Origin: Hydra vulgaris
Taxonomy: Eukaryota; Cnidaria; Hydrozoa; Anthoathecata; Hydridae
Direction: 5' to 3'
Assembly: GCF_038396675.1 (NCBI RefSeq)
Contig: NC_088922.1
Span: 9,661,001-9,725,000, forward strand
Length of the DNA: 64,000 bases
Shown here: in pieces, positions 320 to 58,510 of the stretch
How positions within the stretch are numbered: the first letter of the stretch is position 1
Layout: each line of letters starts with the position of its first letter
The notes under the pieces: generated by a model
What the model was told of the DNA's origin: nothing
Seen by the model: only the letters and a program-made list of their open reading frames with translations
The model's database searches: none
Translations under genes and position numbers: made by a program

Positions 320-2673
<2,354 letters not shown>

Positions 2674-2765
2674 ACAATATAGAAGATACAAGTTTAGCAA
2701 GCAACCGCAAAGTGGTTGCTAAGGTGGCTTTATGTAAAGGGTGTTCAAAAAAAATATTTTAAAAC

Positions 2766-3341
2766 AAGAATATACAAGAAGCCAAATTTGGAGCAAATAT
2801 AAAAAATAATACAATTACAAAAGAAAGTTCCAAAATTTGACATTTGCCTTGTGCTCGAGTGACAAAATACCCTGAAAAATGTTCCTAATTGTTTAAAAAA
2901 ATTTTTTTTTATATAATCATAATGGTCCAAATTTTTTTTTTAATTGTTGTGTATCCTGGTTTTTAAATAATTGTTGTTTAAAAAGATTTCACATAACTTA
3001 AGAAAGGAAAACAATTATTTTTAAAAAAACTTATTTTTGCATATTTGCGCAAAATTATTTTTTTGCGAAATATTTTTTTTATTTAAATAACAATTATGAA
3101 AAAACTAGAGTACCCAACAATCTAAAAAAAAAACTTTAGACCATTTTGATCACATTAGAAAAAAAATGTTTACAAATTATTGAAATTTACCTTGCGCTTA
3201 AAGCCAAATAATTTAGGAACAATTTGGGGTATTTTGCCGCTTGAGTATAAGGTAAATGTCAATATTTTTTGGAATTTTTTTTTTGTAATCGTATTTTTTT
3301 TTATATTTGCTGCAAATTTGGCTTCTTGTGTATTCACGTTT
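2766..3341. mobile_element. Foldback (inverted-repeat) element
   Basis: The left arm at about 2766-2892 and the right arm at about 3210-3341 are imperfect reverse complements for roughly 125 bp; for example CAAGAAGCCAAATTTGGAGC on the left matches the inverted GCTGCAAATTTGGCTTCTTG on the right. The loop of about 320 bp is T/A-rich with no gene. Structure and length fit a foldback MITE; exact ends and a target duplication were not resolved. Confidence 0.6.
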
Positions 3342-3423
3342 TTAAATTATTTTTTTTTGAACTACTTTATATGCAACATTTTTTCATAGACATTAGTTAT
3401 TTAACAGGCATGTTGTTTTTTTA

Positions 3424-4424
3424 ATGCATCTTGAATCTAATAAATTACTTTCTAATTATCAATATGGGTTTTGATCTTCTCGTTCTACAGCTGGTTTGCT
3501 AACAGTAATAAATAATAGGTTTTATCGTGCATTAGATAAAGGTGGAGAGGTTAAGGCCATTGCTCTTGACATTTCAAAAGCTTTTGATAAAGTTTGGCAT
3601 GCTGGTCTTTTCCATAAGCTTTCTTCTAATGGTGTATCTGACAACATCTTTAAGATTATTAAATCCTTCCTTTCCAATCATAGTATAAAAGTTATCCTTG
3701 ATGGACAACACACTTCTTCTTATTCTGTAACTTCAGGGGTTCCTCAAGGTTCTATTCTTGGCCCTACACTCTTTTTAATTTACATCAATGATCTTCCAGA
3801 TATTCTCACATCTAAGGTGGCATTGTTCGCTGATGATACTACTATTTATTCTTGTCATGATAAGAAGCCAACACTCTTTGATTGCTTGGAGGGGGTATTG
3901 GAGTTTAAAAAGGATCTCACTTCTGCTACAGCATGGGGCTCACAGTGGCTGGTGAATTTTAGTTCAGATAAAACTCAATTTTTTTCAGCCAATCATTATC
4001 GCAATAATTTAGATCTTCCTATATTTATGAATAATAATGTACTTGATGTAATGTAAATAATAATGTACTTGATCTACCCTTCATCTTCTAGGATTAACTC
4101 TTACTTTCGATCTTCCTTGGAAACTGTGCATCAAATCCGCAAATACTGTAATGGGCACTGTTCTAAAGAGCTAGTGTCTTTTGTGCCACCTACTAAAATT
4201 CATTCTCGTGTTACTCATCATTCAATTAAGTCTCATCCTTTTTCTGTGACTGTTCCTAAATGCTCCAAAAACTCTTATTCCTTTAGTTTTTTTCCTTGAA
4301 CATCAGTTCTTTGAAATTCGCTTCATTCATCTTGCTTTCCTGATTCATATAATTTGCAATCTTTTAAGTTGTCTGTCAATCGTTATCTTGCTTTAGAATC
4401 TTCATCTTTTTTCTTTCAGTAACT
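3424..4424 (+). mobile_element. CR1/jockey-like LINE fragment: reverse transcriptase (LINE family A)
   Basis: Reads as the palm of a non-LTR reverse transcriptase: LDISKAFDKVWHAGLFHKL, GVPQGSILGPTLFLIYINDL and the catalytic FADDTTIYSC. The frame from 3496 to 4056 is preceded by LMHLESNKLLSNYQYGF, which is broken by a stop. Near 4056-4140 an internal deletion joins the post-palm region to the C-terminal tail (GHCSKELVSFVPPTKIHSRV, SHPFSVTVPKCSKNSYS), which ends at about 4421. The same family appears on the minus strand at 33905-37330. The copy is 5'-truncated and inactive. Confidence 0.9.
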
Positions 4425-4918
4425 TCCAACTCTAATAGTGGTTGCTTGCAATCAAGACCCTTGTTGGAATAGAAGATGTTAAAAAAAAGTTGCAGTTTGT
4501 TTCATTAGCGGTGAGTTTGTTACGCAAAATTTATTGGTTGTGTGAATTAATAATTGATCAAATATTTGGCATGCAGCTGTCACTAACTTTTATTGCATTT
4601 CTGTTTTTGTGGAGCTTATGCTGTAATGAAAAATATAAGTCAATTAAGTTTTAGAAAAGGTGTTTAATTTTGGTTAGAAAATTTTTACTGAAAGGAGAAT
4701 TAAACCATGTTTCTTTTTTGTTTATTAGTATTAGAAGGATTTAGATTTGAATCATGTAAGAAATTAGTTAATCCAGACTTTTCTAATGCATCTTTATAAG
4801 TAGGAGGAGTCTTTTGAAAAGATTATTTTCTTACTTATCACAAACATCTTTTGATTGTCTCACATAAAATGATAGTCTAAAGAAAATCATTAGAATTCAT
4901 TTTGTTTTGTATTTTTAG
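4425..4918. other. Intron-like AT-rich stretch without recognised features
   Basis: Lies between the LINE fragment and the exon at 4919. A 70-codon open frame at 4442-4654 shows no recognisable motif and is probably chance. Confidence 0.4.
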
Positions 4919-14007: not shown

Positions 14008-14958
14008 TGTTTTTCTTTAGTTAAATTTTGTAGTTTTCATACTTTTGTTTGAATGATATAAATTATTTTATTTTTAATTTTTTTTTTCTGTTCACATTTT
14101 TCAATTCTAAAAGTTTTAAATTAATGAGGGTTTGTATTGCAATAAATAGGGGGTATATTAGGTGTATAATTTTTCTTAGGTGTACTTTTTTTTATTGCTG
14201 TTTTTTAAATTTTTGCCCTTTTGCAAAAAATGAAAATTTAAAGCTTTATCATTATAATTAGTTAATATTTATTCATAAAATAATTGATAATGTTCTAAAT
14301 ATGGTGTAGAAAGTGTGGAAGGGTGAAAGGTGTATGAGGTGTGAAAGGGTGAAAGATGTAGGAAGTTTCAAAAAGAACTTTCAGAGATTAGAGTCAAAGA
14401 TTCTTTTTTTTTTTAATGTAGTTTTGAAGTTCTAAAATTAGTTAGAAACTTCTGAGGTTTATTGAAAAAGAAAAAAAAAGACTTTAAACGTTTTGAAATC
14501 AATTATTTCTGAACTCAGAATTCTTATGTATAAATGTAACCTGGTATCTAGGTTCAAAAGTTATTGTTTTAAGAACTCATAAAGATGTTTTTATTAATGA
14601 TGTTTAGAAGTTCATAAAAAATTTTGGAGCTTCAGGAATAAAGGAGTCCAGTTAAAAATAGAGAATCTTTGGCTTTCAACACTAGAACCTTTTCTTGGTT
14701 TAAATTGTTTTGCTCTGCAAAAATAATTTTAATCTAAATTAATGAAAATAAATGACATAAAATGAATTATTAAAATGTTATAAATACTAAAATAAAATAA
14801 ACCTTATATAAATAACAAATACACTTATAAAATTTTCAAAATAAATTTTTATTTGTAATTATGATATTATTTATTCATTTTATAATTGTTTATATTCAAT
14901 GAACTATTGGCATTGTTTATGCTCTTTTAAAAACTGTTTTTTAGACTGTTTTGTAGGT
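14008..14958. other. Intergenic AT-rich stretch upstream of PRELID1
   Basis: No gene supported. Short duplicated motifs GTGTGGAAGGGTGAAAGGTG / GTGTGAAAGGGTGAAAGATG lie near 14311-14360. The 70-codon frame at 14049-14261 shows no recognisable motif. Confidence 0.4.
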
Positions 14959-15510
14959 ATGAAGTTTATTGAGACAAGTTCTAGTATAAATCATTCTTGG
15001 TTCAATATCAGTTCGGTGTTTTTTTGTAGATATCCGAATCCATATAGTAAACATGTTCTTTCTGAAGATGTTATATCACGAAAACTTGAAAATAATATTT
15101 TAAAAACAATACGCTTACAGTCTAAGACAAATGATGCTCCTAACTGGTTAAAGCGTTTCCTTCCATCTTCAACTGCTTATATTGTTGAAGAATCACATGT
15201 AGACTTGAAAACTGGTGTTATTATGACATATACCACTAATTTAAATTTGAAGACACTGCTACAAGTTGATGAAAAGGCTTTTTTCTTTAAATCCCCTGAT
15301 GGCTCTACTAAAGTGAATCGTCAAGCTTGTATTAGATCAAATTTATTTGGTTTATGTCATGCATTTGAGTCCTTTGGGTTAAAAAGATATTGTTCAAACA
15401 TTTCGAAGATGGAGAAAAGCTTTGATTATGTATTAAAAATAAAATCTCCTCAGCCTATTTCGCATCTAAATTATAATTTACCTGACATAAGCAATGCATT
15501 TCCAGTTTAA
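14959..15510 (+). CDS. PRELID1: PRELI domain protein, mitochondrial lipid transfer (PRELID1-like)
   Basis: A 183-residue single-exon gene. PRELI/MSF1 proteins pair with TRIAP1 in the mitochondrial intermembrane space and carry phosphatidic acid between membranes for cardiolipin synthesis (family knowledge). Direct evidence: MKFIETSSSINHSWFNISSV at the start, the signature YPNPYSKHVLSED at about residues 25-37, a WLKRFLPSS segment, the beta-strand NLNLKTLLQVDEKAFF and a C-terminal helix with KRYCSNISKMEKSFDYVL. The ATG at 14959 is chosen because it aligns with the usual N-terminus just before the domain; the open frame extends 20 codons further upstream without resemblance. YPNPYSKHVLxED favours PRELID1/prel over PRELID3 or PRELID2. 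It is a little shorter than the human protein at the C-terminus. No stop or frameshift interrupts it. Confidence 0.88.
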   Translation: MKFIETSSSINHSWFNISSVFFCRYPNPYSKHVLSEDVISRKLENNILKTIRLQSKTNDAPNWLKRFLPSSTAYIVEESHVDLKTGVIMTYTTNLNLKTLLQVDEKAFFFKSPDGSTKVNRQACIRSNLFGLCHAFESFGLKRYCSNISKMEKSFDYVLKIKSPQPISHLNYNLPDISNAFPV

Positions 15511-17572: not shown

Positions 17573-25905
<8,333 letters not shown>

Positions 25906-27524: not shown

Positions 27525-31781
<4,257 letters not shown>

Positions 31782-33971: not shown

Positions 33972-36900
33972 TTAGGAACAGTCACAGAAAAAGGATGAGA
34001 CTTAATTGAATGACGTGTAACACGAGGATGAATTTTAGTTGATGGCACAAGAGACGCTAGCTTTTTAGAGCAGTGCCCATTATAGTATTTGTAGAAAAGA
34101 GAAAGAGAAGCAATATTACGACGATGTGATAATGGTTGGAGGTTGGCTGCAAGAGCAGGTCCAACTATGTTTACAATGCGTTTTTGCACCTTGTCTAAAA
34201 GAGATTTAAAAGAAAAGTAGTTACTTTGATGAATAAAATCCTTAGTAAAATTTTTTAAAACTATTTTATTCCATAAGAATGGTATTTAAAACTATTTTAT
34301 TCCATAAGAATGGTCCGCGATAATCAATACAAAATTTAAAAAGATTTGTTTGAAAAATGGGCTGCTTTATAAAATTATCATTCCGCAAAATGTATTTATT
34401 TTTATCTTTCGATGAATACAAATTATGGAAAGAAATAGGGGATGAATTGGTTTTACATTTAAACATAAAACAAAGAATATTAAAAATGTTAAGCTCATAT
34501 ATATTAAAAACTTTCATTTCAAATAATAGAGGCTTGGCATGAGAATAACGGTCTTTAAAATATATGAGACGTGCTACATGCTTCTGCTGACAATAAAGAG
34601 GTTTAAGTTTAATTTTCTTTGCACTACCCCAAGCAATGTTTGCATAGTTTATGTGACAATGAATAAATGAGTGATGTAATTGTACTAAATTACGTTTATT
34701 TAAAACATTTCTTGCTTTGTACAATATTCCTATACTTTTTGAAATTTTACTTGATAAGTTTTTGATGTGACTTTTCCATGTTAGATTTTCATCTATACAA
34801 ACACCTAGAAAGTTGGTTACTGTTACTTGTTCAATTTGTATATTGTCAATAACAAGATGAGGCATGTTAATTGGCAGTTTATGTTTTTTGATAAGAGGAT
34901 GGAAAAGAACCCATTTAGTTTTATCAATGTTAAGAGATAATATGTTAGTCTTAAACCAGTCTGATATTTTGTTTAACTCGATGTTCAAGCAACTAAATAA
35001 AGTAGGAATGCTTTTGTGTGACATGAATAAATTGGTGTCATCAGCAAACATAATTGTTATTAAATCCGAGACTTTGTATAAATCATTAATATAAATAAGG
35101 AAAAGAAGAGGTCCTAATATGGATCCTTGAGGAACTCCACATGTAATATTTAACAAATTTGATGATAATGTTTCATCGGCGTAAACAAATTGTTTGCGAT
35201 TAGTTAAATAACTTTTTAACAATTTTAAAACATTGCCTGTTATACCACAACATTTTAATTTTTTAGCAAGAATTTTATGATTAATGGTATCAAACGCTTT
35301 CGCAAAATCAATAAATACTCCCAATGTGAATTTAGAATTATTAAATGAGTCTGATATACTTCATGTAAGCTGAATAATTGCATGCTCTGTTGAATTATTT
35401 TTTTTAAATCCATATTGCATGTTATATAATAATTTGTTTGATAAAAGGTGATTGTATATTCTGTTGTACAAAATTTATAGAGATTTATAGAGATAGAGAA
35501 TAGAATCCGAAGTAAGAAAGTGACAAGCTCGATAAAGAGATGCAACCTTAGCAGATGCTAATTTTGCAACTGATTTGATATACGGTTTCCAAGAGAGATT
35601 GGAAGTAAGAGTTAATCCTAGAAGATAAAGAGTAGATGACTCATTGAGTACATCATTGTTCATAAATATAGGAAGATCTAAACTATTGCGATAACGATTG
35701 GCTAAAAAAAATTGAGTCTTATCTGTATTGAAGTTCACCAGCCACTGTGAGCTCCATACTGTAGCAGAAGTGAGATCCTTTTCAAGCTCAAATGCCCCCT
35801 CCAAGCAATCAGAGAGTGTTGGTTTCTTATCACGACAAGAATAAATGGTAGTATCATCAGCAAACAATGCCACCTTAGATGTGAGAATATCTGGAAGATC
35901 GTTAATGTAAATTAAAAAGAGTATAGGGCCAAGGATAAAACCTTGAGGAACCCCTGAAGTTACAGAATAAGAAGAAGAGTGTTGTCCATCGAGGACAACT
36001 TTCATTCTACGATTGGAAAGGAAGGATTCAATAATCTTAAAGATGTTGTCAGATACACTATAAGAAGAAAGCTTATGGAGAAGACCAACATGCCAAACTT
36101 TATCAAAAGCTTTTGAAATTTCAAGAGCGATGGCCTTAACCTCTCCACCTTTATCTAATGCACGATAAAACCTGTCAGTTATTACTGTTAACAAATCAGC
36201 TGTAGAACGAGAAGAGCGAAATACATATTGATGGCCAGAAAGTAAGTTATTAGATTCAAGATGAGAAATTAAGTGTTTGTTAATTAAAGATTCAATAACC
36301 TTGCTTATGATAGGAAAAAGACTTATGGGACGGTAGTTAGACGTAGCAGCACAGTGTGAGGAAAACCATGGAGGAGAGTCAGGCTCAACCTGGAATCGTC
36401 GAGAGGGAACAAAAGATTCCATGCCAGCCTGAATCCATAAAGTTATGTAAGATGCGCATTTGTCGACAGGAAGACAAAAGATTTCTACCCAAGGGCCATC
36501 ACGAAGAAAATCACGGAAAGAATCTCAGTCAGCTTTACTGTAGTTGTAAGAGGTTCGATAATAGGGGGATTTGGGTGATGAAGAAGCATGAGATATTAGT
36601 TTTAGAGAGATCAAACTGTGATTAGAAGCACCTAAGTGTGAATGTGGAGAAACTAAGCACTGACTAAGATCAGAAACAAGACATAAGTCGAGTAGAGAAG
36701 GTGAATGATTCGGGTTGTCAGGAAAGCGAGTTAGAAAGTTGACTATTTGAGTTAGAGATTGTGAAAGACAAAAGTTGTGGGCTTTAATGCCTGCAGAATC
36801 ACTGACACTAGAGCCAAACCATTAAGAGTGGTGAGCAATAAAGTCACCGACAACAACTATTTTAGCTGATGGATAAAGAGAGAGGGCTTGGTCAATATAA

Positions 36901-43379: not shown

Positions 43380-44089
43380 TTAAGGCACCAAGTCACGTAA
43401 AAGAGGTTTACAAGGAACAGCTGTACCAGCTCCAAATACAATGCAAACAGCATGTTTTTGCTTGCTGCACAGTTTTCTTAACTTAGCGTGATTAGTACTT
43501 GTCCATTCGATATTACGGTAAGTTAAATAACTATGTATAAAAGAAGAATATACATATTTTAAGGACCTAAATTTTAAAGAGCTCCTAGATCATGCCGATA
43601 TTTTTGAGATTTTTTTTTAATGGAGTTTCTATGTTGTTTCAATGATAGATTTTTATTAAAATTTCCTCCTGAAAAAACTGACATCAAAAGTTTGCCTTTA
43701 ATGTCAGTTTTATTAAATTGGAGATGGGTAGAATAAGAGGTGTTTCTTTTGATTTGCCTGATGTGTGGAAAAGGAAAAGCTTTGTTTTTTGAACATTCGA
43801 AGACAATTTGTTGCACATAAACCACTCATTTACTTTATTTGGTTCTTTATTGACTACTTTAAAAAGTGTTTCAATATTTTTATGAGAATAAAAAAGATTA
43901 GAGTCATCTGCAAATAAAATAAAATTTAATAAGTTTGATGATGAAGATAAATAATTAAGGTATATAAAAAAGTAAAGGTTCAAATATAGAAGCCTGTGGA
44001 ACTCCACAAGTTATAGCATTTTTGCTTCCTTCTATATCTTCATATTGTATGTATTGTTTTCTGTTCGACAAGTAATTTTCAAACCAGTG

Positions 44090-44128
44090 CACAGTGAGCC
44101 AGATTTCACTTTTAATGGAAAAAATTCA
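44090..44128 (+). promoter_or_regulatory. Left terminal signal resembling an RSS (heptamer-23-nonamer)
   Basis: CACAGTG at 44090-44096 is the canonical V(D)J heptamer. A 23-bp spacer (44097-44119) is followed by AAAAATTCA (44120-44128), an A-rich block where the nonamer would be. Confidence 0.7.
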
Positions 44129-44542
44129 TAACTAATTTAATTTTTTTTTTATTTCGTTACTATGGATACCTTTATTTTGCTTAGCAACAACCTATTTTTG
44201 ATATTTGCATATATTTTATGAGTGCTTTATTTACAATATTTGGCATGAATACTTTATTTACAATATTTAGCATGAATACAATATTTGGCATGAATATGAG
44301 ATAACGCTTCTTACAAAAGTGATAACTTTTTTATTTAGTTGCTATGGATACTTATACTGCTTAGTAACCCAATTTCCTTAGTTACAAAGGGCTAAATTAA
44401 TTTTTGAATAAATTTTATCGGATTTTTGACCCACCTATATTGAATAACAATTAAGCATTCAGGTAAATAATGTTTTAGCAATAATAAAAACAAAAAATAA
44501 TGCAAGAAAACATTTTCAATTTTAAATTATATCAAAAGTTTA

Positions 44543-46313
44543 TTAAACATTAATATCGTTTGAAGATTGTTTAAGTAATTGTAAAACATCTGAAGAAAAT
44601 CTTTTATGATTTGTTCGGTGTGATATTGATTTACGCAGTGATGAAATGACAGGATCACTGGAAACTAGAAGTATATTGATCAGATCAGTATTTGTTGCTC
44701 TTCTGAATGTTTTTTGGATGAAATTTTTGCGATAAGATTTGAAGTCTTTTCTACCCTATTGAGCTTCTTCTGACATAAGTGCGATGGGTAATGTAAGACT
44801 TTTAACTATGTCATGTCTATGTATCAATACTTTGTACACAGATTCAGCCATGTAATACCATGGATAAAGAGACATATATAGTCTAACAGTGTCAAAACAA
44901 TAACCCTTGAATTTTAGGCAGTCTATTTCATATCCTAAAGAGAGTGTTATCAAGATAATGTAAAATCTGAATATAAGGTTTTAGTCAATACCCAGAACTT
45001 CAGCTGTTTGTTCATATGCTGCAAAAGCACGCCTTGAAGTATTGCCATTGTTGCATTTTCCAGAACCACCACTTTTAGGAAAATTAACAATAAGTTCCAT
45101 TTTGTTCATAAAATCAGTCTGAATCTTTTGTTTAACTACAGATGCATTTTCTTTGCGTTCTTTAAATCTTGCTGGCCACTTCCTTGTTTTTTTTTTTTAT
45201 ATGCAATGTGCAAAATCATCTCAAAAAATTGAGTCCATAAATGGAGACTGAAAAGACCATATTAAAACTTTCTGTTAATATAATCTATATTAAAGATATC
45301 AAGACTATTCATATTTTTTGGAGAGACACCACATACTGAACAGTATTGGTGTGAGTTAGTTTTTTCAGATAATATCGTTTGAACCTTCCATCAATCATTG
45401 TAAGTTCAATAATAGAGTTCACTTCAATAGAAGATCCGCAAACCTCTTATAAATCATAGCCAAGCTTTCTATTTCACTTTTAATCTACTGATCTTCGATC
45501 ACAGATTCCTTGGATTCCGTTTTGAATGCAAATGTTATCTACAATAGGCTATGGATAGCACCTTTTGATTTCTCCAAATAGGTACCTTTTCGTTGCTGTT
45601 GTTAAATCCAGTCAAATGCAATGGGACTAGACAAGTAATAAACAATGATTCTTTACGTTTTAAATCTCTGTTCATGTCAGGTTCTGATAAAACTTGTTTA
45701 TAAATGCTTTGGTCAGTAGCACCATTAAAACTAGCCTCAGATCAATATCAAGTGCCTCAGAACAGGTTTCTGAACTGCACAGATTCTTTTCAAAGTATGA
45801 GTCATCAAATCTTTTAAAGGAATTGAAACTGAATAGTCCTCCACAACTTTATCTGCAGGATAGCATTGTAATTGACATGGCATTATTGTAAGCGGGTTAG
45901 ATGTTATATTCTTTCTCCAAGGATCCACTTCTAATCCTTTGGTAAGAAGCTTTTGTCAGACTGGCATCAATTATTAAAGCCAGTGCTTCGCCTGCTGAGT
46001 AATTACTTGCATTATCTGTATTTGAAATATTTAAAACGTTCTTGGCAGCAATAACGATAGATTCATCTCTTAATTTTTTACTAGCAGCAAAAAATAATAT
46101 ATTGGATGAATGAGATTCAAGTAAGCCAGATACACGCCATTTTTTAGTTTTATTAGAACTATCATCAAATGTAACTGGTTTCTGACCACGTCTACTTGCA
46201 ATTGGTTTGTTGTCTTTTTTTCTAATAATTAAATATTCATTAAGCCAATTCACAAACTTCTTTTCAAAGTTTTTGACAGTATAGTTTGCAGATTTCCACT
46301 TTATTTTATTCAA
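44543..46313 (-). pseudogene. Decayed Transib/RAG1-like transposase
   Basis: Minus-strand pieces in order. 46313-45897: MNKIKWKSANYTVKNFEKKF to GEALALIIDASLTKASYQRI. 45928-45737: MPCQLQCYPADKVVEDYSVS, IPLKDLMTHTLKRI. Then FNGATDQSIYKQ (about 45715), where my recollection of the family has FDG, so the first catalytic Asp is probably lost. ITCLVPLHLTGFNNS follows. ELTMIDGRF (about 45395) keeps the second Asp, then after a frameshift HQYCSVCGVSPKN (a CxxC as in the RAG1 zinc region). FPKSGGSGKCNNGNTSRRAF (about 45070) parallels RAG1 NGNFARK. YPWYYMAESVYKVLIHRHDI and LPIALMSEEAQ (44756) hold the final Glu region. The end is VSSDPVISSLRKS to a TAA at 44543-44545. Several frameshifts and stops; inactive. 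Alignment to RAG1 is by eye. Confidence 0.78.
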
Positions 46314-46877
46314 TAAAGAAATCGTTGAACAGCATGCCTAAAATTGAAGTCTTTAAATTCAGCAATTTTTGGCTGAATAAATTTTAATATATCTTCGGTA
46401 ATATTTTAAAAAAAAATCTGAATGGCGATTTATAGGGAACGAACAATCAATGGAAACTCGATTGAGGCATCATATAGCTTAAATAAATATAAGACAGCAC
46501 ATGGCAAATTGTGACAATTATTAGTTATAGTGTAGCAAAAAATAAATTTCTTAAAGGTTGTTTTTTTTAACTGCGATTTTCAAAGTATAACTGAGATAAC
46601 ATGCTATGACAAATTGATTTCACACAATTGTTTTTCTAATCTCTAAATACTCTAAAATAACATGTACTAATTTTTTGTTTTAAAAACGTAGATGTAATTG
46701 AATATCACACAACGCTGATGTCACCGTAATTGTTTATAATTTTTTATTTTTTTAGTTTCAATATTCAAATGCTCAGAGCCCTGGTAACTAAGGGATTTAG
46801 TATAAATAAATTATTCATAAATTTCTCTTAATATATACAGATACTAAAATTAATTAAGTTTTCAAGATTAGACAACT

Positions 46878-46916
46878 AGATTTTTTCCCATTTTGTCTAC
46901 CTACTGGCCCACTGTG
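46878..46916 (-). promoter_or_regulatory. Right terminal signal resembling an RSS (heptamer-23-nonamer)
   Basis: Read on the minus strand: CACAGTG (46916-46910), a 23-bp spacer (46909-46887), then AAAAAATCT (46886-46878). Spacing is identical to the left end. Confidence 0.7.
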
Positions 46917-48254
46917 CAGTGCAAGTTTAAATCTTTTATTCCTTAATGTTCTATTTCTTAAATTAGAATGGAACGATATATGGTGTCAAAAGCTTTGGAC
47001 AGATCAATGAAAACTCCCTAATGTTAAACAGTCTTCTTTAAAGACATTAGATGTTTTACTAATTCTACTGAAAAAAAACCTGCTTACTATACAATATATC
47101 ATTTTTAATTAAATAATTAACAGTCTATTGTGCATTTTACGTCCAAGTAAATTAAAAAAACACGATAATACAGAAATAGACCAGTAATTTGAATGGGCTG
47201 ACTCATCTCCAGCCTTAAGAATTGGAGTAACTCGAGCAGTTTTTAAATTATCCGTAACTATACCTGATTTAAAAGATAGGTTGAAAATATGAAATAAGAA
47301 TGGTTCAATTATATGATAGACTAATAATTTGTTAATTAAAATTATTTTAATATATTGACACTAACTTTATCTGATCCTGCACTTTTGTTATTTTTAGACT
47401 TTATAAAGCAGATCGCAACTCAATTGTCTAGCTTTGATTCTTTCATTTTTTTATTAGAAGTTTTTAGATAGGAATCAAATGTTAGTGAAGTTGGAGGAAT
47501 ATTTTGCGCAAATTAGAGCTAACACTTACAAAAAACTGTTCGACTTCTTCACAAAAAATTTGCAGCTGTTAGCGCTTAATCACAAACTAAATTACCGTAA
47601 AATAAAGTTTTTTTGGCAAAACGTTTTTTAGTGATTTTGAATTTGTATAAAACGTTTTTAGAGTTAATGCTTTATTGTATTGTCTACAATCTTGTGATAG
47701 AAAAAGTTCATAAGCATTGTTAGCATCGTGAGATTGAAGAATCAGCTCCCAATCAACGCAGTTGATTTGAAGGTTGCAATATTGTTGTGTGGAGTTTCCA
47801 TTGATCTGTTGTTTAAATTAAATATGTTTTGAGGGAGTATTATTAGGTATTATGTTAATTGTAATAAGAAATGTTAGAAGATGATTAGACGAATCAGTTT
47901 TTATTATACCTGTACTAAAGCAATTTTTATTTATAATTATATTATATTTATTTTTTAAAGCAAAAATTATTAGTAATTATGCTATCGAGTAGAGTAGAAG
48001 AACATTTTGTGGTTTGGTTAATGTTCGAATGAGATTATTTTGTAATAGATTCAGTTCATGACAAAGTAAACATGCTTTTGAGTTTTATTAACTTGGGTTA
48101 AAAAGTGTGTATGCAAGTTTTAAATTTTTTTAAATTAGCTGCTAGTTCTCTATAAACAGCATTAACAAGTATGTTTTTAGATTTTTGGGTAATAATTTGA
48201 ATGCGCAATGACTCGCAATCTCGGTGTTAATTTTCGTTAACACCGAGGTCATTA

Positions 48255-53760: not shown

Positions 53761-54016
53761 TTTTTATTTCATGATAAAGTTTATGTTTAAAAAAATGTTG
53801 CTATACCATGGTGGCACAAAACTCATGAAAAATTATCCGCACAAGAATTCCTTCGTGTGGAAATAATGTCCAAGGGAATTGTAGTGCTTTAATCATTAAT
53901 ATTTATCCAATGAGAATCAACTAATTGTTAATTTTTGCCCAGAGAGAAAAAAGGAATGTTGCAATCATTACAATGTTAATTTGAGATCGTGTGTTTATGC
54001 TGTTTTGGATTTTATA

Positions 54017-54930
54017 ATGGCAGTAAACAAGTATAATTTAGCTTTTCAAGAACGTATTATTAAAGATTATAAGAAAGGAGTCAAACAAAAAGAATTTGCA
54101 ACAAAATACTCCATTAACAAGTCGCCTGTATGTCGAATAATCAAACGATTTATTAAAGGCAGTCCTTTAGAAACAGAACATAAAGGCGGAAGACCACGCA
54201 AAACATGTCGTTTCAGCAACAGAAAAATTTTTTGCAGTGTTAAAAATAATCTTTTCGACAGTGCTAATGATATCATTAAAAAACTAAACCTTTCTGTGTC
54301 TCAAAATACAGTTTTTAGACGGTTACAACTTTCAGGACTTTTGAGCTTTAGATCAGTAAAAAAATCTTTCATTTCTCAGAATCGAAAAGCTAGAACTGAA
54401 TTTACAAATGCGCATAGAGAGTGGACTAAAAATGATTGGAATAGAGTATTGTGGAGCGATGAATCAAAGTACAATTTGAAAGGTCCTGATGGCAATTTAA
54501 AGTTACGTAGGCCTAAAGAAAACCCTTACATATAAATATACAAGACGAACAATCAAGCATGGTGGTGGAAAAGGTGCAATGGTTGTTTTTCTGTTTTTAG
54601 TGGAGTCGGAGTTTATTTATTTACAGAATAAATGGCATTATGGATCAATATATTTATCGTGATATTTTCAAGGAAAACGAATGGTTTGAAACAAATCAAG
54701 TTAAAGTAATGAAATGGCCAGCTCAATTACCTGATCTCAACCCGATTGAAACTTTATGACACCAAGTTGAACTTTTCCTAAAACACAAAACGCTGATGAA
54801 GTATATAAAGCAATTAAAACCACGTGGAGTGAGATTACACAAGAAAAAATTAATAAACTCATAGAGTCTATGCCGAGAAGATATTCCATGATCCTAAAAA
54901 GTAAAGGATATGCCATTAACTATTATTAAT
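54017..54930 (+). pseudogene. Broken Tc1 transposase
   Basis: ATG at 54017 (MAVNKYNLAFQERIIKDYKK). Paired helix-turn-helix domains (KQKEFATKYSINKSPVCRII, NDIIKKLNLSVSQNTVFRRL), the GGRPRK motif between them, and the first catalytic site WSDESKYNL. The frame stops at 54535. Frameshifted pieces continue as RRTIKHGGG, IYRDIFKENEWFETNQVKVM and KWPAQLPDLNPIETL, where a stop replaces the usual Trp. The segment holding the second Asp (FQQDNDPKHT in Tc1 proteins) is absent, so an internal deletion removed it. Terminal inverted repeats were not identified. Confidence 0.88.
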
Positions 54931-58274: not shown

Positions 58275-58510
58275 AACAAATAGACTACTATCGTACAAAT
58301 AGACTACTATCGTACAAATAGACTACTATCGTACAAATAGACTACTATCGTACAAATAGACTACTATCGTACAAATAGACTACTATCGTACAAATAGACT
58401 ACTATCGTACAAATAGACTACTATCGTACAAATAGACTACTATCGTACAAATAGACTACAATCGTACAAATAGACTACTATCGTACAAATAGACTACTAT
58501 CGTACAAACG
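58275..58510. repeat. 19-bp minisatellite, about 12 copies
   Basis: Unit ATAGACTACTATCGTACAA repeated head to tail with a single substitution (ACTACAATCG in the eleventh or so copy). Near-perfect identity implies recent expansion or gene-conversion homogenisation. Confidence 0.95.

Follow-up and report, generated by a model that had tools for sequence, protein, structure and literature searches.

Positions 44090-46916 of the window, the 64,000-nucleotide stretch of Hydra vulgaris DNA analysed here (contig 3, 9,661,001-9,725,000), almost certainly (probability about 0.97) hold a dead cut-and-paste transposon of the Transib superfamily, which was inserted into an older LINE and belongs to a lineage sister to a young family. 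The ends, the target duplication, the continuity of the empty site, the transposase homology, the lesions and the open-frame young relatives that argue for this reading can all be read from the DNA sequence. In the course of events that they suggest, a Transib transposon from the same group as the structurally solved Helicoverpa enzyme jumped into the LINE, doubling the 5-bp target CAGTG. The inserted copy came from a sister lineage of a young family that remains abundant in this genome. It has since died: its 5' part was deleted, stops and frameshifts built up, and the first catalytic Asp was lost. Judging from studied relatives, the protein would cut the CACAGTG ends by nick-and-hairpin chemistry using a D-D-E site, with a 5-bp stagger on insertion. 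The parts of the locus are as follows.

43389-44083, minus strand: decayed reverse transcriptase of the host LINE, part downstream of the insertion.
44085-44089: left target site duplication CAGTG, read from the sequence.
44090-46916, minus strand (coding strand): dead Transib element of 2827 bp that retains both termini, placed from its ends, motifs and genome matches.
44090-44102, plus strand: left terminal inverted repeat CACAGTGAGCCAG; young copies read CACAGTGGGCCAG.
44156-44188: inverted pair of the motif GTTRCTAWG close to the element end, from a half-site scan.
44338-44368: second paired inverted motif, from the same kind of scan.
44543-46405, minus strand: transposase relic, start codon lost, from alignment to the young copy L014.
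46407-46413: break point of a deletion of about 440 bp that took 5' sequence and the first codons.
46904-46916, minus strand: right terminal inverted repeat CACAGTGGGCCAG.
46917-46921: right target site duplication CAGTG, read from the sequence.
46937-47017, minus strand: reverse transcriptase of the same host LINE, part upstream of the insertion (GVFIDLSKAFDTI).

The first-pass annotation of this DNA had claimed CACAGTG inverted ends and a 5-bp duplication of CAGTG for the element, and both are present: position 44090 is the first base of CACAGTGAGCCAG, position 46916 is the last base of CTGGCCCACTGTG, CACAGTG stands inverted at the two termini and CAGTG flanks them directly. When the element was removed and the flanks were rejoined with one CAGTG, the LINE reverse-transcriptase homology was unbroken and free of gaps at the junction (one script comparison, against another LINE of the window). 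Because this homology runs across the rejoined junction, the element boundaries are fixed independently, and the continuity without the element shows that it landed in a pre-existing LINE. The host LINE relic carries stops of its own.

In coding order the minus-strand relic shows SFNGATDQSIYKQ, MIDG, CSVCG, GNTSRR and SEEAQ, so that the series of motifs from MIDG onward that had been read from the raw sequence was recovered in the translated relic. The change of the first catalytic Asp to Asn, also part of that earlier reading, is real: Asp occupies this position in 28 of 28 aligned young copies, and the window copy is the only one of the 29 aligned copies in which it is altered. In the alignment to L014, seven codons of the window copy are stops, the final codon (659 of 659) among them, and eight of its ten indels shift the frame. 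The window copy is missing roughly 440 bases of the young copies, among them the start codon and some 21 codons. The relic itself cannot make an enzyme; at most, enzyme supplied by other copies could move its ends.

Differences between the window copy and L014 number 59, 51 and 67 at codon positions 1, 2 and 3, and the pN/pS ratio of this one uncorrected pair is 0.53, silent changes being favoured. As the differences from this one young copy lean toward silent changes, the lineage of the window copy was probably under some selection before the copy died. The same bias, together with the partial retention of the motifs, is what a host gene domesticated from a Transib element at this locus might show. 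However, the frame is broken repeatedly, the start codon is deleted and the first catalytic Asp is gone, both ends and the target duplication are still in place, and selection on the mobile lineage before insertion accounts for the silent bias. Domestication, which was dropped on account of the broken frame, thus has a negligible probability. The locus reads instead as a dead transposon, and its relatives are numerous.

The genome searched comprised 911,502,276 bases in 15 contigs. Apart from its own locus, the element DNA matched many places at 85-87% identity, mostly over query positions 55-2318 together with matching end pieces. Of 1450 candidates 40 were scored, one of them the window copy itself, and copy counts are therefore lower bounds; the scored places match over about two-thirds or more of the element. 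Genome-wide, with up to two mismatches, there were 832 left-end and 665 right-end sites, and reversed controls gave none. The exact matches listed for contig 1 (40 left and 43 right ends) form at least 33 left/right pairs within 8 kb, 2972-3620 long, and include no short forms.

The relatives are young. The mean pairwise divergence of 28 young copies is 1.0%, and each departs by 0.06-0.78% from the sequence of the commonest base in each column. The window copy departs from that sequence at 267 of 2783 positions (9.6%). No copy of the window's own sublineage at more than 87% identity was found among the 40 scored of the 1450 candidates, and the sister-lineage reading consequently rests on one copy. 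Full-length intact copies, which the first-pass annotation had proposed should be collected, do exist: the complete 659-residue frame is open in 9 of the 28 aligned young copies (L012-L015, L017-L019, L029 and L033), the frame of L030 stops two residues early and the other 18 are broken. Eight of the nine full-frame copies keep the catalytic D, D and E; in L013 the second Asp is replaced by Tyr.

Thirty loci, including the window copy, were fetched, and a script placed both ends in 29 of them, the exception being L031. The duplications of these other copies, named beforehand as a point on which the Transib identification could fail, are also of 5 bp: among the 29 mapped copies 21 are perfect, five have one mismatch and three have more (L011, L025 and L030). 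Inspection by eye, allowing for a damaged or misplaced end, found matching 5-mers in L025 and L030 and none in L011. Perfect duplications begin with C in 19 of 21 cases and end with G in 18. Among the 28 young copies, CACAGTG is exact at the left end in 25 and at the right end in 26.

An intact homologue of 659 residues was compared with PDB. Its sole match up to E 1 was the Transib transposase of Helicoverpa (2.3e-104, residues 155-649). Three fragments translated from the window were also searched; 44981-45196 and 44756-44980 matched the same chain (2.4e-6 and 2.2e-13), and 45897-46337 matched nothing. We considered whether the relic derives from a different superfamily of DNA transposons that has similar ends and also makes 5-bp duplications, as CAC-type ends can occur in other superfamilies. 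The length and strength of the match to a Transib transposase make this extremely improbable. The case for a Transib relic, as first put forward, draws on transposase homology, ends and the 5-bp duplication together.

The relation to RAG1 is more distant. The Pfam RAG1 model matched neither the intact homologue nor six window fragments, so that the link to RAG1 by sequence requires related families. A profile built from three Transib families of the genome matched HzTransib (2.2e-128), RAG1L (2e-19) and RAG1 (7e-13). A lack of significant matches to Transib/RAG1 profiles had been named at the outset as a refutation, and this outcome did not arise; through the three-family profile the core of the window family is seen to be related to those of RAG1 and amphioxus RAG1L (ProtoRAG). 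In the aligned core the window family is 43% identical to HzTransib, in contrast to 18% each to RAG1 and RAG1L, and HzTransib, L014 and L052 (a second family of this genome) are mutually 43-49% identical.

These values bear on the idea that the element is a RAG1/RAG2-like (RAGL, ProtoRAG-type) transposon from which the RAG2L gene has disappeared. Its ends would suit such an origin, as CACAGTG is also the RSS heptamer. PMC7204232 states that RAGL elements also make 5-bp duplications, as the window family does. However, in addition to the low identity, a segment following the zinc-site cysteines that L051 (a third kind of element), RAG1L and RAG1 have in common is missing from the window family. 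Moreover, no other stop-to-stop frame of more than 83 residues was found on either strand of the nine full-frame young copies, which indicates the lack of a RAG2-like gene in one piece, the kind of gene that such a scan sees (short spliced exons would escape it). The RAGL reading was dropped for want of a second large gene and for the low identity to RAG1L and RAG1, and we regard it as very unlikely. Of the original label "Transib/RAG1-type", the Transib part stands, and "Transib of the Helicoverpa type" describes the element better than "RAG1-type", given 18% identity to RAG1 and no second large gene.

HzTransib (PDB 6pqn and 6pr5) resembles the window family in the three catalytic positions and in the GNT(S/A)RR and SEEA blocks. 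Its alignment leaves about 150 N-terminal residues of the Hydra protein unaligned, including a GRKP stretch. A GRP-type nonamer-binding domain has been described for Transibs (PMC9435367), and GRKP sits there in the Hydra protein.

The Pfam RAG1 model matched 24 places in the Hydra genome, all above the cut-off, and matched none of 14 control genomes. Twelve of these places (L039-L050) align with the window-family protein at about 27-62% identity, depending on the piece, and their translations resemble one another. The 12 places fetched among the 24 look like members of the L052 family. L052 belongs to a second Transib family, the protein of which is 48% identical to that of the window family. 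Three loci (L052, L053 and L054) were scanned for ends, and L052 alone showed them: its element, 2453-5486 on contig 11, has CACAGTGGGTCA-type ends 3034 bp apart and the duplication CCTAG. The third kind, L051, is a weaker match with an intact frame of 732 residues in a 3390-bp element (1190-4579, on contig 7 within 15154000-15159500) that has CACAGTGGGCC ends and the duplication CCACG. Against PDB the L051 protein matched HzTransib (7.4e-26), RAG1L (1.8e-12) and RAG1 chains (from 5e-8).

In a small unrooted tree (six sequences, long branches, no outgroup), L051 falls between the Transib group and RAG1/RAG1L, with inner-branch bootstraps of 100, 100 and 96. Subgroup I Transibs have been described as nearer to RAG1L and as having an equivalent of the RAG2-binding region, which Subgroup II lacks (PMC9435367). 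Since the segment after the zinc-site cysteines is found in L051 and is missing in L014, L052 and HzTransib, the window family would probably fall into Subgroup II, and L051 into Subgroup I. Hydra vulgaris thus appears to hold both published subgroups, and its Subgroup I-like L051 combines an intact transposase and a RAG1 match over the core with proper ends and a 5-bp duplication.

Outside the gene the young copies carry GTTRCTAWG half-sites as three inverted pairs, 22-28 bases apart, and the window copy retains two of these pairs. One young copy has six exact half-sites, whereas 500 mononucleotide shuffles averaged 0.11 and never exceeded two. If one mismatch is allowed the excess is much weaker (12 half-sites, where 300 Markov samples averaged 3.1 and reached 12 at most). 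The L051 element contains no GTTRCTAWG half-sites, and six occur in the 61,173 bases of the window outside the element of 44090-46916. The paired motifs may bind protein or may be what is left of old duplications.

A dead Transib in Hydra is a known kind of finding in a host where such elements have already been reported, because Hydra Transibs stand in published trees and are listed as putatively active. The alignment of PMC9435367 takes in two Hydra vulgaris proteins, HvuTransib-7_HMp and HvuTransib-9_HMp, and the Transib tree of PMC4411706 contains Hydra magnipapillata. In Hydra AEP, PMC12220107 gives CMC-Transib as one of 14 putatively active element types, which is expressed yet is one of three types outside the top 20% by expression. 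HvuTransib-7_HMp, HvuTransib-9_HMp and CMC-Transib share superfamily and host with the window family. No paper matched a search for Repbase-style family names, a weak result since the search also missed PMC9435367, which prints such names with a prefix. PMC7204232 notes that earlier work had described solitary RAG1-like loci in cnidarians, and gives Transib as less than 22% identical to RAG1 and RAG1L.

Within these bounds, an identification of Transib made from raw sequence alone has been confirmed and the relic has been placed in a recently expanded group. The relic itself offers nothing new for the evolution of RAG; the interest lies in its family and neighbours. Only tentatively, and with more doubt than confidence, would we suggest the broader picture that at least three Transib families coexist in this genome, all bounded, as far as examined, by CACAGTG ends and 5-bp duplications, that one of them is very young and numerous, with some open frames and with family-specific paired subterminal motifs, and that one intact transposase lies between the Helicoverpa type and RAG1. 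If that picture is true, Hydra could serve as a living host for tests of RAG-related transposition and of steering by subterminal sites, because young and RAG1-nearer Transib families would coexist there.

Transposon remains also abound elsewhere in the window: frames for mariner-type and Tc-type transposases and for reverse transcriptases lie at 22649-23329 (plus), 53900-54535 (plus), 34266-35360 (minus), 35475-36524 (minus) and 3475-4056 (plus). An open frame at 14845-15510 (plus) matches the PRELI family (E 1.4e-32) and is a host gene or a retrocopy. Three open frames at 28741-31781 (plus) are perhaps exons of one gene, the last having six C2H2 zinc-finger stretches (Pfam), and look like a host gene. 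A tandem array at 58276-58508 has a 19-base unit in 12.3 copies with a 99% match.
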